DNA of 64,000 bases, from positions 62,001 through 126,000 of the forward strand of contig NZ_FNJJ01000005.1 in NCBI RefSeq assembly GCF_900104265.1. Reading direction: 5' to 3'. Under the pieces are notes generated by a model, which saw nothing but the letters and a program-made list of their open reading frames with translations, was not told the DNA's origin and made no database searches. Below are positions 11,888 through 40,410 of the stretch, piece by piece. The stretch is from Ectopseudomonas guguanensis (GTDB lineage Bacteria > Pseudomonadota > Gammaproteobacteria > Pseudomonadales > Pseudomonadaceae). Both the position numbers and the translations under genes were made by a program. Each line of letters begins with the position of its first letter. Within the stretch, counting starts at the first letter, position 1.

Positions 11888-12051
11888 GGCGGGTTGCACC
11901 GGCCCTACGCAGCCCGTAGTCCCAATGCGATTTGGGCGGCCAGGCAAGGATTTCCCGGATTGCATCCGGGCTACGCGGACGGTCAGCGCAGGTAGGGCGG
12001 GTGAAACCCGCCATTGCAGGCTGGCGGGTTGGTGAATCACACCTGCCCTAC
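11888..12051. repeat. Cluster of mixed REP units
   Basis: Several palindromic units are packed between the MFS gene and lysR: an inverse GGCGGGT-class unit (11888-11908), GTAG + TCCCAA/TTTGGG (from 11916), an inverse CCCGGATTGCATCCGGG unit ending CTAC (11954-11974), GTAG + GGCGGGT-GAA-ACCCGCC (11992-12012), and a stretched inverse unit (12023-12051). The last one ends in CTAC, whose CTA is the lysR stop codon on the minus strand. Confidence 0.8.
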
Positions 12052-12944
12052 GCCACTGCGACGATCTCCTCGATCAGCCACTGCAGCGCGGCGTCGCGCT
12101 GACGTTGCGCCAGGCTGACGATCTCCAGGTGGAAGGGGCCCAAGGCGAAGGGCAGGTCGAACAGTTCAAGCGGCAGCAGGGTGGCGAAATGCCGGGCCAG
12201 GGCAGTGGGCAGTACCGCCGCCAGCTCGCTGCCGGCGACGATGTGCGCCGCCTGCAGGTAGTTCGGCGTGGTGTAGAAGATCTGCCGCGACAGGCCCTGT
12301 TCGCCCAGCCACTGATCGACCATGCCGCGGGTCTGCCCGCCGTGCACCCAGAGGTGGCGCAGGCGCAGGAAGGTCTCCAGATCCAGGCTGCCCCGACGCA
12401 GCAGCGGATGCTCGCGGCGTACCGCCAGCTTGAGCGTCTCGCTCATCCAGTCACGGCGGGCAAAACGCGCCGGCATCTCGTCGAAGCGGCCCAGCACCAG
12501 GTCCAGCTCGCCCTTGTCCAGCGCCTCCATCGGCAGGCTGGGGCTGAGGTGGCGAATATCGATGCCGATGCCCGGTGCCTTGTGGCTGAGGCGGTCGAGC
12601 AGGCGCGGCATGCACACCAGCTCGACGTAATCGGTGACGGCGATGCGAAAGCGCTGGCGGCTTTCGCCCGGCTCGAAGGCCTCGCCGGCGCTCAGGCTCT
12701 GCTCCAGCTGGCGCAGCGCGCTGCGAATCGGCGCCTCCAGCGCCAGCGCCCGCGGGGTGGGCTGCATGCGCCGGCCCACGCGCACCAGCAGCGGGTCGCC
12801 GAGCAGTTCGCGCAGACGGCCCAGGGCATTGCTGACCGCCGGCTGGCTCAGCGCCAGGTGCTCGGCGGCGCGCGAGACGTTCTGCTCGCGCAGCAGGGCG
12901 TCTAGCACGCGCAGCAGGTTGAGGTCGAAGTTGGTGAAATTCAT
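12048..12944 (-). CDS. LysR-family transcriptional regulator
   Basis: The 298-residue protein has the standard LysR N-terminal helix-turn-helix (NLLRVLDALLREQNVSRAAEHLALSQPAVSNALGRLRELLGDPLLVR, about residues 9-55). A LysR substrate-binding domain follows, with ITDYVELVCMPRLLDRL-like strands. It is transcribed away from the 3-hydroxyacyl-CoA dehydrogenase gene and is the natural candidate to regulate it and itself; the inducer is unknown. A short palindrome lies eight bases before its start. Its C-terminus is set by a REP element: the stop TAG is the TAG of a GTAG head. Confidence 0.92.
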   Translation of the reverse strand: MNFTNFDLNLLRVLDALLREQNVSRAAEHLALSQPAVSNALGRLRELLGDPLLVRVGRRMQPTPRALALEAPIRSALRQLEQSLSAGEAFEPGESRQRFRIAVTDYVELVCMPRLLDRLSHKAPGIGIDIRHLSPSLPMEALDKGELDLVLGRFDEMPARFARRDWMSETLKLAVRREHPLLRRGSLDLETFLRLRHLWVHGGQTRGMVDQWLGEQGLSRQIFYTTPNYLQAAHIVAGSELAAVLPTALARHFATLLPLELFDLPFALGPFHLEIVSLAQRQRDAALQWLIEEIVAVA

Positions 12945-12951
12945 CTACTGA

Positions 12952-12962
12952 ATACGTCGTAT
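12952..12962. promoter_or_regulatory. Candidate LysR operator
   Basis: ATACG-T-CGTAT is a perfect palindrome beginning eight bases upstream of the lysR start, in the divergent gap. LysR proteins typically bind dyads of this kind (T-N11-A) and autoregulate. Assignment is by position and symmetry only. Confidence 0.45.
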
Positions 12963-13017
12963 CACAAGACTAAATTTCAAAAATAGTAGCGGCTTGCTTA
13001 TCGTGACCCAAGCTTCT

Positions 13018-13172
13018 GGGCGCCTTTAAAAACGTAGGCGAGGCAGTCAGCGCAATACCGATGGCGGCCCCGCAAAAACAGGCGAAGAAGCGCAGTTTAC
13101 GTGCTGTAAATGAGCATTCTGAGCCTGTTTTTAACGCAGCGATGACAACGCAGGTAGTTTTTAGAGGTGCCC
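13018..13172. mobile_element. MITE-like palindromic element A
   Basis: The ends are 16-bp inverted repeats with two mismatches: GGGCGCCTTTAAAAAC (13018-13033) and GTTTTTAGAGGTGCCC (13157-13172). Inside are a perfect 10-bp inverted repeat AAAAACAGGC/GCCTGTTTTT (13074-13083 and 13123-13132) and a central hairpin TTTAC-GTGCT-GTAAA (13096-13110). It shares the 14-mer CGTAGGCGAGGCAG and a following ATGAGC with element B at 40187-40326. No reading frame is present and no clear target duplication is seen. It lies between the LysR operator and the start of the dehydrogenase gene, ending 28 bases before that ATG. Confidence 0.65.
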
Positions 13173-13200
13173 TGTCCGTGCGTAATCGAGAGGAAAAACA

Positions 13201-14442
13201 ATGACTAAAGTCGTCTCGCCGCTTCGCTGTGCCGCCGTGATTGGCGCCGGCACCATGGGCCGCGGCATCGTCATCAGCCTGGCCAATGCCGGCCTGCAGG
13301 TGCTGTGGCTGGACAACAATCCGCAGATGGTCGAGCAGGGCCTGGCAATGGCCGAGGAAACCTGGGAGCACAACGTCGCCAAGGGTCGCATCGATGAGGC
13401 CGAAGCCGCGGCGCGACGCGCCAGAATCCATGCGGTGCAAAGCTATGCGGCCCTGGCCGACGCGGATTTGGTGATCGAGGCGGTGTACGAGAATCTCGAG
13501 CTCAAACAAAACATCTTCCGTGAGCTGGACGCGGTGCTGAAGCCCGGCGCCATCCTCGCCAGCAACACATCGGCGCTGGATGTCGACGCTATCGCTGCAG
13601 TCACCACGCGGCCAGAATCGGTGCTGGGCCTGCACTTCTTCAGCCCGGCGCACATCATGAAACTGCTGGAGATCGTCCGCGGCGGCAAGACCGCGCCGGC
13701 CGTGTTGCAGGCCGCACAGGAGCTGGGCGAGCGCATGGGCAAGGTGGCGGTGGTGGCCGGCAACTGCCACGGCTTTATCGGCAACCGCATGCTGCACACC
13801 TACGTGCGCGAGGCACGCATGCTGTTGCTCGAAGGCGCCTGGCCGCACCAGGTGGACGCGGCGCTGCAGGGCTTCGGCTTCGCCATGGGGCCGTTTCGCA
13901 TGTACGACGTGGTCGGCATCGACCTGGAATGGCGCGCCCGCGAGCTGGCCGGCCAGGGGCAGGATGATCCGGCGGTACAGGTGGACAACCGCCTGTGCGA
14001 GCTGGGCCGCTTCGGCCAGAAGAGCGGTAAGGGCTACTACCTCTATGCGCCCGGCAGTCGCCAGGCCGAGCATGACCCGGTCGTCGACGGCTTGGTGCAG
14101 ATGCAGTCGGAGCGCCTCGGCTTCACCCGCCGCGATATCGGCACCGAGGAGATTCTCGAGCGTTGCCTGCTGGCGCTGGTCAACGAGGGGGCGAAGATTC
14201 TCGAGGAAAACATCGCCGCCAACAGCCGCGACATCGATCTGGTCTATCTCAACGGCTACGGCTTTCCCGCCGAGCGCGGCGGCCCAATGGCCTGGGCCGA
14301 TGGCGAGGGCGTCGCGGCGATTCATCGGCGCCTGCTGCAACTGACCGAGCGTTTCGGCGCGCACTGGCAGCCGGCGGCGCTGATCGAGCGCCTGGCTGCC
14401 GAGAACAAACATTTCAGCGACGTACAGGAGGGTCGGGTATGA
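13201..14442 (+). CDS. 3-hydroxyacyl-CoA dehydrogenase
   Basis: The 413-residue enzyme has an N-terminal NAD-binding fold (AAVIGAGTMGRGI, about 11-23), the family segment GLHFFSPAHIMKLLEIV with the catalytic His, and VVAGNCHGFIGNRML. Two C-terminal HADH domains follow, the second ending LVYLNGYGFPAERGGPM. It oxidises 3-hydroxyacyl-CoA to 3-ketoacyl-CoA. It lacks the enoyl-CoA hydratase half of FadB, so it is a stand-alone dehydrogenase. The downstream acyl-CoA dehydrogenase gene overlaps it by four bases, so the pair probably belongs to one catabolic pathway controlled by the divergent LysR protein. Which acyl chain is used is unknown. Confidence 0.92.
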   Translation: MTKVVSPLRCAAVIGAGTMGRGIVISLANAGLQVLWLDNNPQMVEQGLAMAEETWEHNVAKGRIDEAEAAARRARIHAVQSYAALADADLVIEAVYENLELKQNIFRELDAVLKPGAILASNTSALDVDAIAAVTTRPESVLGLHFFSPAHIMKLLEIVRGGKTAPAVLQAAQELGERMGKVAVVAGNCHGFIGNRMLHTYVREARMLLLEGAWPHQVDAALQGFGFAMGPFRMYDVVGIDLEWRARELAGQGQDDPAVQVDNRLCELGRFGQKSGKGYYLYAPGSRQAEHDPVVDGLVQMQSERLGFTRRDIGTEEILERCLLALVNEGAKILEENIAANSRDIDLVYLNGYGFPAERGGPMAWADGEGVAAIHRRLLQLTERFGAHWQPAALIERLAAENKHFSDVQEGRV

Positions 14443-39650: not shown

Positions 39651-40187
39651 ATGTCGGACGCGCAGACTCCCTTCCAGATTCTCCTCGAGATCGACCAGCG
39701 TTGCCGAGCCCTGGCGGCCGGCCTGCCGTCGCAGCAGGCGGCGGTGCAGACCTGGAGCGGTATCGGCTTTCGCATGGGCGAGCGCTTCTTCGTCGCGCCG
39801 ATGGGGGAGGTGGGGGAGGTGCTGCACGAGCCGCGCTATACCCTGCTGCCGGGTGTGAAGGGCTGGGTCAAGGGGGTGGCCAACGTGCGTGGCCGCCTGT
39901 TGCCGATCATGGACCTGTGCGGGTTCTTCGGTAATGAACTTTCGCCGTTGCGCAAGCTGCGGCGTGTCCTGGTGGTCGACCATCAGGAAATCTTCGCCGG
40001 CCTGACGGTCGACGAAGTCTTCGGTATGCAGCATTTCCCCGTGGATGCCTTCTCAGAACAATTGCCGCCCCTCGAGGCGAGCATTGCGCCGTTCATCCAC
40101 GGTGTCTTTCAACGGGAACAGCCCTGGTTGGTGTTCAGCCCGCATGCGCTGGCGGCCGATCCGGGCTTTCTCGATGTTGCCTATTAG
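39651..40187 (+). CDS. pilI: CheW-like coupling protein PilI
   Basis: The 178-residue CheW-domain protein (GIGFRMGERFFVAPMGEVGEVLHEP, WVKGVANVRGRLLPIMDLCGFFG) links the PilJ receptor to the ChpA kinase at the pole. It starts 45 bases after pilH. Its TAG stop is directly followed by MITE-like element B, whose first base is the G of the stop codon, so the 223-base gap before pilJ is largely element B. Confidence 0.96.
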   Translation: MSDAQTPFQILLEIDQRCRALAAGLPSQQAAVQTWSGIGFRMGERFFVAPMGEVGEVLHEPRYTLLPGVKGWVKGVANVRGRLLPIMDLCGFFGNELSPLRKLRRVLVVDHQEIFAGLTVDEVFGMQHFPVDAFSEQLPPLEASIAPFIHGVFQREQPWLVFSPHALAADPGFLDVAY

Positions 40188-40326
40188 CAGGCTGTTTGAA
40201 GGCGTAGGCGAGGCAGGCAAGACAAGGCGAAAGTCGGCGGACAGTGCAGCTCATGGCAGTAGATGAGCGAACTCAAGGCACTTTCGAGGCAGGATTGCCA
40301 GAGCAGGCGGTCGTTGCAGAGCCTGC
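40187..40326. mobile_element. MITE-like palindromic element B inside the pil-chp operon
   Basis: Outer repeats are GCAGGCT (40187-40193) and AGCCTGC (40320-40326). It shares CGTAGGCGAGGCAG (40203-40216) with element A. The inner arms CGAAAGT/ACTTTCG (40228-40234, 40280-40286) and central hairpin GCTCAT/ATGAGC (40249-40254, 40263-40268) occupy the same places as the different stems of element A. No reading frame is present. It sits between pilI and pilJ. Confidence 0.6.
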
Positions 40327-40410
40327 GGATTTTTCGGTTGGGTCGGTTCTTCCGACCTTTTGGCGTTACATGGGAACCCTAGTGCGGTCGGTCCAGGCGG
40401 GGGCCAGATG

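Follow-up and report, generated by a model that had tools for sequence, protein, structure and literature searches.

At positions 13018–13172 of the window, the 64,000-nucleotide stretch of DNA analysed here, lies a complete copy (copy A) of what is probably a non-autonomous MITE that is mobilised by IS5-family transposases, carries exchangeable ends and has a selected fold of one strand. Its relatives are short, gene-less and present in many copies, have terminal inverted repeats, show a target duplication together with empty sites, and share their ends with an autonomous element. The window also holds a second, degraded copy (copy B). The features of both copies and the neighbours of copy A are as follows.

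13018–13172, plus strand (the strand with the G-U excess): element copy A, complete, A-type ends; covariance-model match 13065–13146, E = 8e-22
13018–13033, plus strand: left terminal inverted repeat of copy A, GGGCGCCTTTAAAAAC, pairing with 13157–13172
13033–13046, plus strand: conserved outer internal-loop motif of copy A, CGTAGGCGAGGCAG, facing the ACAACGCAGGTAG region that ends at 13156
13046–13053, plus strand: middle stem of copy A, GTCAGCGC, pairing with GCGATGAC at 13139–13146
13054–13073, plus strand: optional module of copy A, AATACCGATGGCGGCCCCGC, replacing the usual AAGGC; some copies have it, others do not
13074–13083, plus strand: 5′ arm of the inner stem of copy A, AAAAACAGGC, covarying with 13123–13132
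13084–13089, plus strand: tandem G.A of copy A (13084–85 with 13121–22) and 4-bp stem AGAA/TTCT (TTCT at 13117–13120)
13095–13111, plus strand: apical hairpin of copy A, GTTTAC-GTGCT-GTAAAT, with the near-invariant G.U pair 13095–13111
13123–13132, plus strand: 3′ arm of the inner stem of copy A, GCCTGTTTTT, covarying with 13074–13083
13157–13172, plus strand: right terminal inverted repeat of copy A, GTTTTTAGAGGTGCCC, partner of the left repeat
40184–40328, plus strand: element copy B, degraded, with B-type end TTAGCAGGCTGTTTGAA; covariance-model core 40215–40299, E = 2e-4
12048–12944, minus strand: left neighbour of copy A, a LysR-family regulator (Pfam PF00126, PF03466)
13201–14442, plus strand: right neighbour of copy A, a 3-hydroxyacyl-CoA dehydrogenase (Pfam PF02737, PF00725)

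Copy A ends 28 bases before the ATG of the dehydrogenase gene, and a consensus scan of this copy for a promoter or terminator found none. Its folding energy is −67.8 kcal/mol (z = −6.0 against shuffles), and the tip of the fold is formed by GTTTAC (13095–13100) and GTAAAT (13106–13111), followed by GAGC. Copy B, in contrast, is unexceptional when folded as RNA (z = −0.8); it is nevertheless a real, degraded member of the family: a covariance model that was built without it matches it when run on the 64-kb window (E = 2e-4). An earlier note on this DNA had proposed that the two elements share a core and keep hairpins with different stem letters. The motifs it listed as common to both, including CGTAGGCGAGGCAG and ATGAGC, all lie where it placed them, with CGTAGGCGAGGCAG exact at 13033–13046 and 40203–40216. 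The different inner arms and central hairpins are likewise borne out by the coordinates of the two copies, those of copy B being CGAAAGT (40228–40234) with ACTTTCG (40280–40286) and GCTCAT (40249–40254) with ATGAGC (40263–40268). Because copy B is degraded, the comparison of A with B is weak by itself. The four similar direct repeats GAGGCAG, AGCGCAG, AACGCAG and AACGCAG, at window positions 13040, 13089, 13133 and 13147, all fall in internal loops and could serve as iterated binding sites; in many other taxa the outer ones read GAGCGCAG/AAGCGCAG.

In the 5.08-Mb, 26-contig genome as a whole, BLAST with the window stretch gave 44 matches and covariance model R1 gave 48 at E ≤ 0.001. The elements are about 145–234 bp long and contain no coding sequence. 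All full copies have a single architecture with one of three end types: A (consensus AGGGCACCTCTAAAAAC, the type of copy A), B (CTAGCAGGCCGTTGAAAAAC) and C (AGAACCTGTTCACGATC). The difference between the A and B types is confined to about the outer 13 nt. Inside every end type lies the common core CAAGGC-AAAAACAGGC-GA-AAAA-GCGCAG-TTTAC-n5-GTAAA-TGAGCA-TTTT-GA-GCCTGTTTTT-AACGCAG, in which the stems vary. Some copies carry extra hairpins at fixed core positions, either AATACCGATGGCGGCCCCGC for AAGGC or GATCGGACTCGCGCACGAG after CATTTTGA, and two (L029 and L032) contain a longer extra block inside the core. We also observed a 29-bp remnant, TAGGGCGTGTTGACATTCAACAGGGCCTA, that consists of both ends with the core absent (L274; G135 C25 11077).

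Covariation was measured in three alignments: A1, 17 copies of the own genome whose alignment used sequence only, with no fitting to the model; A2, 93 copies from many taxa; and A3, copies from the own genome and its relatives, the latter two fitted to the model structure. In A1, 96.9% of cells pair, compared to only 35–48% for slid structures, and both partners have changed in 13 of the 27 pairs, where shuffles give 5.5 ± 1.4. In the middle stem this holds for five of seven pairs. In A2 the corresponding figures are 24 of 27 pairs and 552 cells versus 162 ± 11, and the covariation in A3 agrees with A2. Counted by parsimony on a FastTree of A2, standard pairs replace one another through double changes 196 times, and a further 143 changes lead into or out of non-standard pairs. 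With wrong-partner columns, the same tree gives 17 double changes on average (at most 32 over 20 draws) and 468 changes of other kinds. The picture does not alter on a tree built from unpaired columns only. Compensated variants are found at the apical stem (TGTAC/GTACA in L036, TGTAG/CTACA in L240) and in the 4-bp stem above the tandem G.A (GGAA/TTCC, GGAC/GTCC and AAAA/TTTT). The copies and their covariation are thus not due to chance, the covariation being far above the shuffled and slid controls. The earlier note had read the paired changes as a sign of a selected fold and had named a lack of covariation, or of further copies, as the outcome that would speak against it; both points came out in its favour, also against wrong-partner columns. 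The outermost stems are the terminal inverted repeats, and matching to a transposase explains their paired changes; it is the core inside them that speaks for a selected fold.

While the stems vary, the internal loops and mismatches are kept across taxa, including the tandem G.A and the middle-stem G.A (G13050.A13142 in copy A). The strand of the fold can be read from the wobble pairs. Not counting the near-invariant basal G.U pair of the tip hairpin (13095–13111, retained in 82 of 87 rows), G.U outnumbers A.C by 9:1 in A1, 72:17 in A2 (p = 3e-9) and 22:10 in A3 (p = 0.05), on the strand reading ...GTTTAC...GTAAATGAGC..., and it is thus the pairing of that one strand that selection keeps. G.T is the more stable mismatch also in single-stranded DNA. 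The excess fits RNA, but the same preference would be expected of single-stranded DNA, so it fixes the strand and not the molecule.

Insertion was examined by searching the joined flanks of own copies in six relatives. At L008, the empty site in a relative has CTACGC directly followed by CTAGGTCAG, compared to CTACGC-CTAG-element-CTAG-GTCAG where the element is present. The L021 site is empty in a relative, with GAACCC running directly into TAAGCCC, and the L021 and L020 sites are empty in G012 or G008. In another genome (G124), ten near-identical copies are every one flanked by TA...TA. The target-site duplication is therefore TA or YTAR, with empty sites in relatives. The flanking duplications for which the earlier note had called thus exist in the family, but they are not clean in the A-type copies, the window copy A included. 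At the window site itself, the element is absent from G013, and in G027 the gap orthologous to 12945–13200 (L346) holds a copy in the same orientation with C-like flanks and wholly different stems, GCGAGCGGGC/GCCCGCTTGC, which may stem equally from an independent insertion or from a replacement in place. None of 40 own-genome copies lies inside a gene by heuristic gene calls. In 14 of 29 copies the stop codon of a neighbouring gene falls at the element edge, as would be expected where the genome is GC-rich and the target is YTAR; copy B, for example, provides with its end the TAG (40185–40187) that terminates the upstream ORF.

The insertion pattern bears on a different explanation, in which the core would act in host transcripts as a functional RNA or as a signal for RNA processing, for example by RNase E or RNase III, and mobility would be incidental. 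The strand-specific G.U excess and the near-invariant G.U pair fit such an RNA, a role of the fold in host transcripts has been proposed for ERIC in Yersinia (PMC2229807), and copy B does lie between two co-directional genes, the upstream ORF (end at 40187) and a gene for a PilJ-type chemotaxis transducer (start at 40408). However, the orientation of the copies to genes is unbiased (n = 40): in tandem gene pairs 10 are sense and 15 antisense, and the other 15 lie in divergent (9) or convergent (6) gaps. The sites are also not conserved, many being empty in close relatives, and no Rfam (15) covariance model matched any of the tested copies. As the unbiased orientation and the empty sites argue against a role in host transcripts, we consider this explanation unlikely.

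We searched eleven genomes for DUF772 transposases and then inspected the element ends. A close relative, G012, which also carries about 35 of the gene-less elements, contains six copies of a 1331–1339-bp IS5-family element whose ends, CTAGCAGGCCGTTGAAAAAC, equal those of the B-type elements letter for letter. These copies are flanked by YTAR repeats (CTAG/CTAG or CTAA/CTAA) and encode a transposase of 374 aa of the IS5 family (NF033581, 260.6 bits, cut-off 140). In G243, an IS5-family element (334 aa, NF033581; L328) has a left end, AGGGCACCTCTAAAAAC, identical to the A-type end and a right end with three mismatches, and rhizobial IS5-family elements also have the B-type end. Two of the three end types of the own genome are therefore IS5-family (DUF772) ends in related genomes, with about 17–20 bp in common, and the mobilising transposase that the earlier note had suggested looking for has a good candidate. 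In G124, an IS has a 19-bp end, TAGGGCGTGTTGACATTCA, identical to that of the local elements; only its start is present, with a ribosome-binding-like site followed by an ORF beginning MDRFLLRD, before the contig ends. The two DUF772 genes of the own genome both lack matching ends, and a search of this genome for pairs of A- or B-type ends 1–2 kb apart with up to two mismatches found none, suggesting that mobilisation here lies in the past or relied on elements since lost. No source IS was found for the C-type ends (GAACCTGTTCACGATCT), and plasmid searches with the A-type and G124-type ends gave no match.

The relationship to the IS does not extend past the ends. The first 20 bp of the G012 IS and the B-type element are equal, and nothing is shared beyond them on either side. 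At a single genomic site, furthermore, whole internal hairpins may differ between genomes (L016 versus its G012 counterpart L231; L032 versus L230), which we attribute to recombination or gene conversion between copies. The loss of similarity after about 20 bp, the joining of one core to several unrelated ends and the swapped internal hairpins together rule out that the core is an internally deleted IS.

The same separation of core and ends would be expected if the elements were substrates for recombination or transposition by a so far hidden autonomous element that recognises the folded core, with the IS5-type ends as later additions. The core is conserved across bacterial families while the ends differ, and the own genome alone has three end types on one core; on the other hand, no larger relative with the core plus a gene was present among the loci examined, and both the target duplication and the ends are in keeping with IS5-family transposition, so that we give this explanation little weight. 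Unselected paired changes, arising when template switching or gene conversion homogenises long palindromes and alters both arms per event, are a poorer explanation still: such exchange does occur between orthologous copies, and the outermost stems must match anyway as terminal repeats, but the tandem and middle-stem G.A mismatches are kept and not repaired, G.U is kept over A.C, and the loops are conserved across taxa where stems vary.

Under mobilisation by IS5-family elements, DDE transposases supplied in trans would recognise the terminal inverted repeats and move the element into intergenic TA/YTAR targets, often stop codons. The conserved core inside the exchangeable ends folds as one long interrupted hairpin, and in this reading selection acts on the fold of one defined strand: stems change in compensated pairs, and the internal loops and purine mismatches stay. 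In the version we favour, the fold would serve the spread of the element itself, either as a hairpin that single-stranded DNA forms at the replication fork, drawing both ends close to each other, or as a structure bound by the transposase or a host protein. Within the MITE explanation, we put the chances at about even that the fold aids the element in one of these ways and not host genes.

Several known repeats are similar in design. ERIC (IRU, RU-1) of Enterobacterales and Vibrionaceae is also a gene-less intergenic imperfect palindrome, of about 127 bp, with terminal repeats, TA termini and a target duplication, and the tip of E. coli ERIC, GGAG-CTTAC...GTAAG-TGA, resembles GGAG-TTTAC...GTAAA-TGA of the present element. 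Homology, as suggested by this motif, was not supported: with the covariance models, ERIC reached E values of only 0.5–0.7 in a 50-kb stretch of E. coli K-12 and ranked below other matches (the K-12 background served for this comparison, with an E. coli O157 stretch carrying type III effector genes, L239, left out), and sequence alignment to ERIC was no better than to shuffles. ERIC also matches Rfam RF02818, whereas the present element does not. E. coli ERIC (L204, 259–382) gave E = 2e-8 with this family (Vibrio RNA AS5), below the gathering score, and RF02818 may itself be an ERIC copy.

RUP (IS630-Spn1) and Correia/NEMIS resemble the present family in their terminal repeats, TA target and many intergenic copies, and the ends of RUP resemble those of an IS; the present family differs in having several unrelated ends on one core, a mobiliser of the IS5-family type and a fold that covaries across families and classes. 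The TIMEs of Pseudomonas are likewise gene-less inverted-repeat elements, but their ends are of the Tn3 type and 38 bp long, their total length is about 262 bp and they are usually single copy, compared to 16–20-bp IS5-type ends and tens of copies here (PMC4133298). Ppu-9, a stem-loop repeat family of P. putida with 57 copies of 124 nt, is compatible with the present element in size, intergenic location and copy number, and the two families, which were compared by description only, may overlap; the text consulted on Ppu-9 mentions neither a mobiliser nor covariation (PMC2267715). REP/REPIN sequences are 20–40-nt hairpins with a GTAG-type tag and a RAYT partner, to which the size, terminal repeats and target duplication found here do not fit. 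The MITE class is thus already known; we found no earlier description of the core-with-exchangeable-ends design or its taxonomic breadth in the literature compared. MITEs are usually viewed as gutted insertion sequences in which only the ends are important. The present family seems to show the opposite: across distant bacteria the core is conserved and covaries, and it is the ends that are swapped. With many copies, a candidate mobiliser and a strand-specific fold, the family makes it testable why bacterial MITEs (ERIC, Correia, BOX) fold strongly. In many species of Pseudomonas and in other Pseudomonadota, the covariance model also gives an annotation to intergenic repeats that had lacked an explanation, tens of them in each genome.

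The earlier note had mentioned similar sequences dispersed in Pseudomonas genomes, and the covariance-model collection it proposed extends the family well beyond that genus. Matches to R1 were found in 43 of 57 genomes in the search of relatives, with up to 70 copies per genome, and matches to R2 in 96 of 299 Pseudomonadota genomes drawn evenly, in several classes, where the copy counts per genome are lower bounds. The exact tip pattern is present in at least 119 stretches of the genome collection, most of which score over the full length with R1; the taxa among the matches listed include Pseudomonas, Stutzerimonas, Salinicola, Halomonas, Marinospirillum, Nitrosomonadales, Mariprofundales and Desulfobacterales. 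Also among the matches listed are many Bacteroidota MAGs (Alistipes, Rikenellaceae, Bacteroidaceae and others) with a sequence type of their own and scores up to 59 bits. The core pairing is apparently also kept in Bacteroidota, where all the listed examples are MAGs and contamination is possible; one stretch labelled 'Pedobacter' (L111) looks like a Pseudomonas-type copy. A phage origin was not indicated, with no match in 50,697 phage records, and the literature matches listed for the short motifs are in contexts unrelated to repeats. More tentatively, the core may be an independent mobile module with a strand-specific nucleic-acid structure that Pseudomonas, Zetaproteobacteria and Bacteroidota have all conserved; it would survive by being re-coated with resident IS5-family ends and would be recognised by some conserved factor, whether of the cell or of a transposase, a possible but not a favoured reading. 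In L132, L168, L093 and L116, several copies lie within a few kb, an arrangement that is array-like in Mariprofundales, with four copies in 5 kb in L132 and three in about 350 bases, all in one orientation, in L093.
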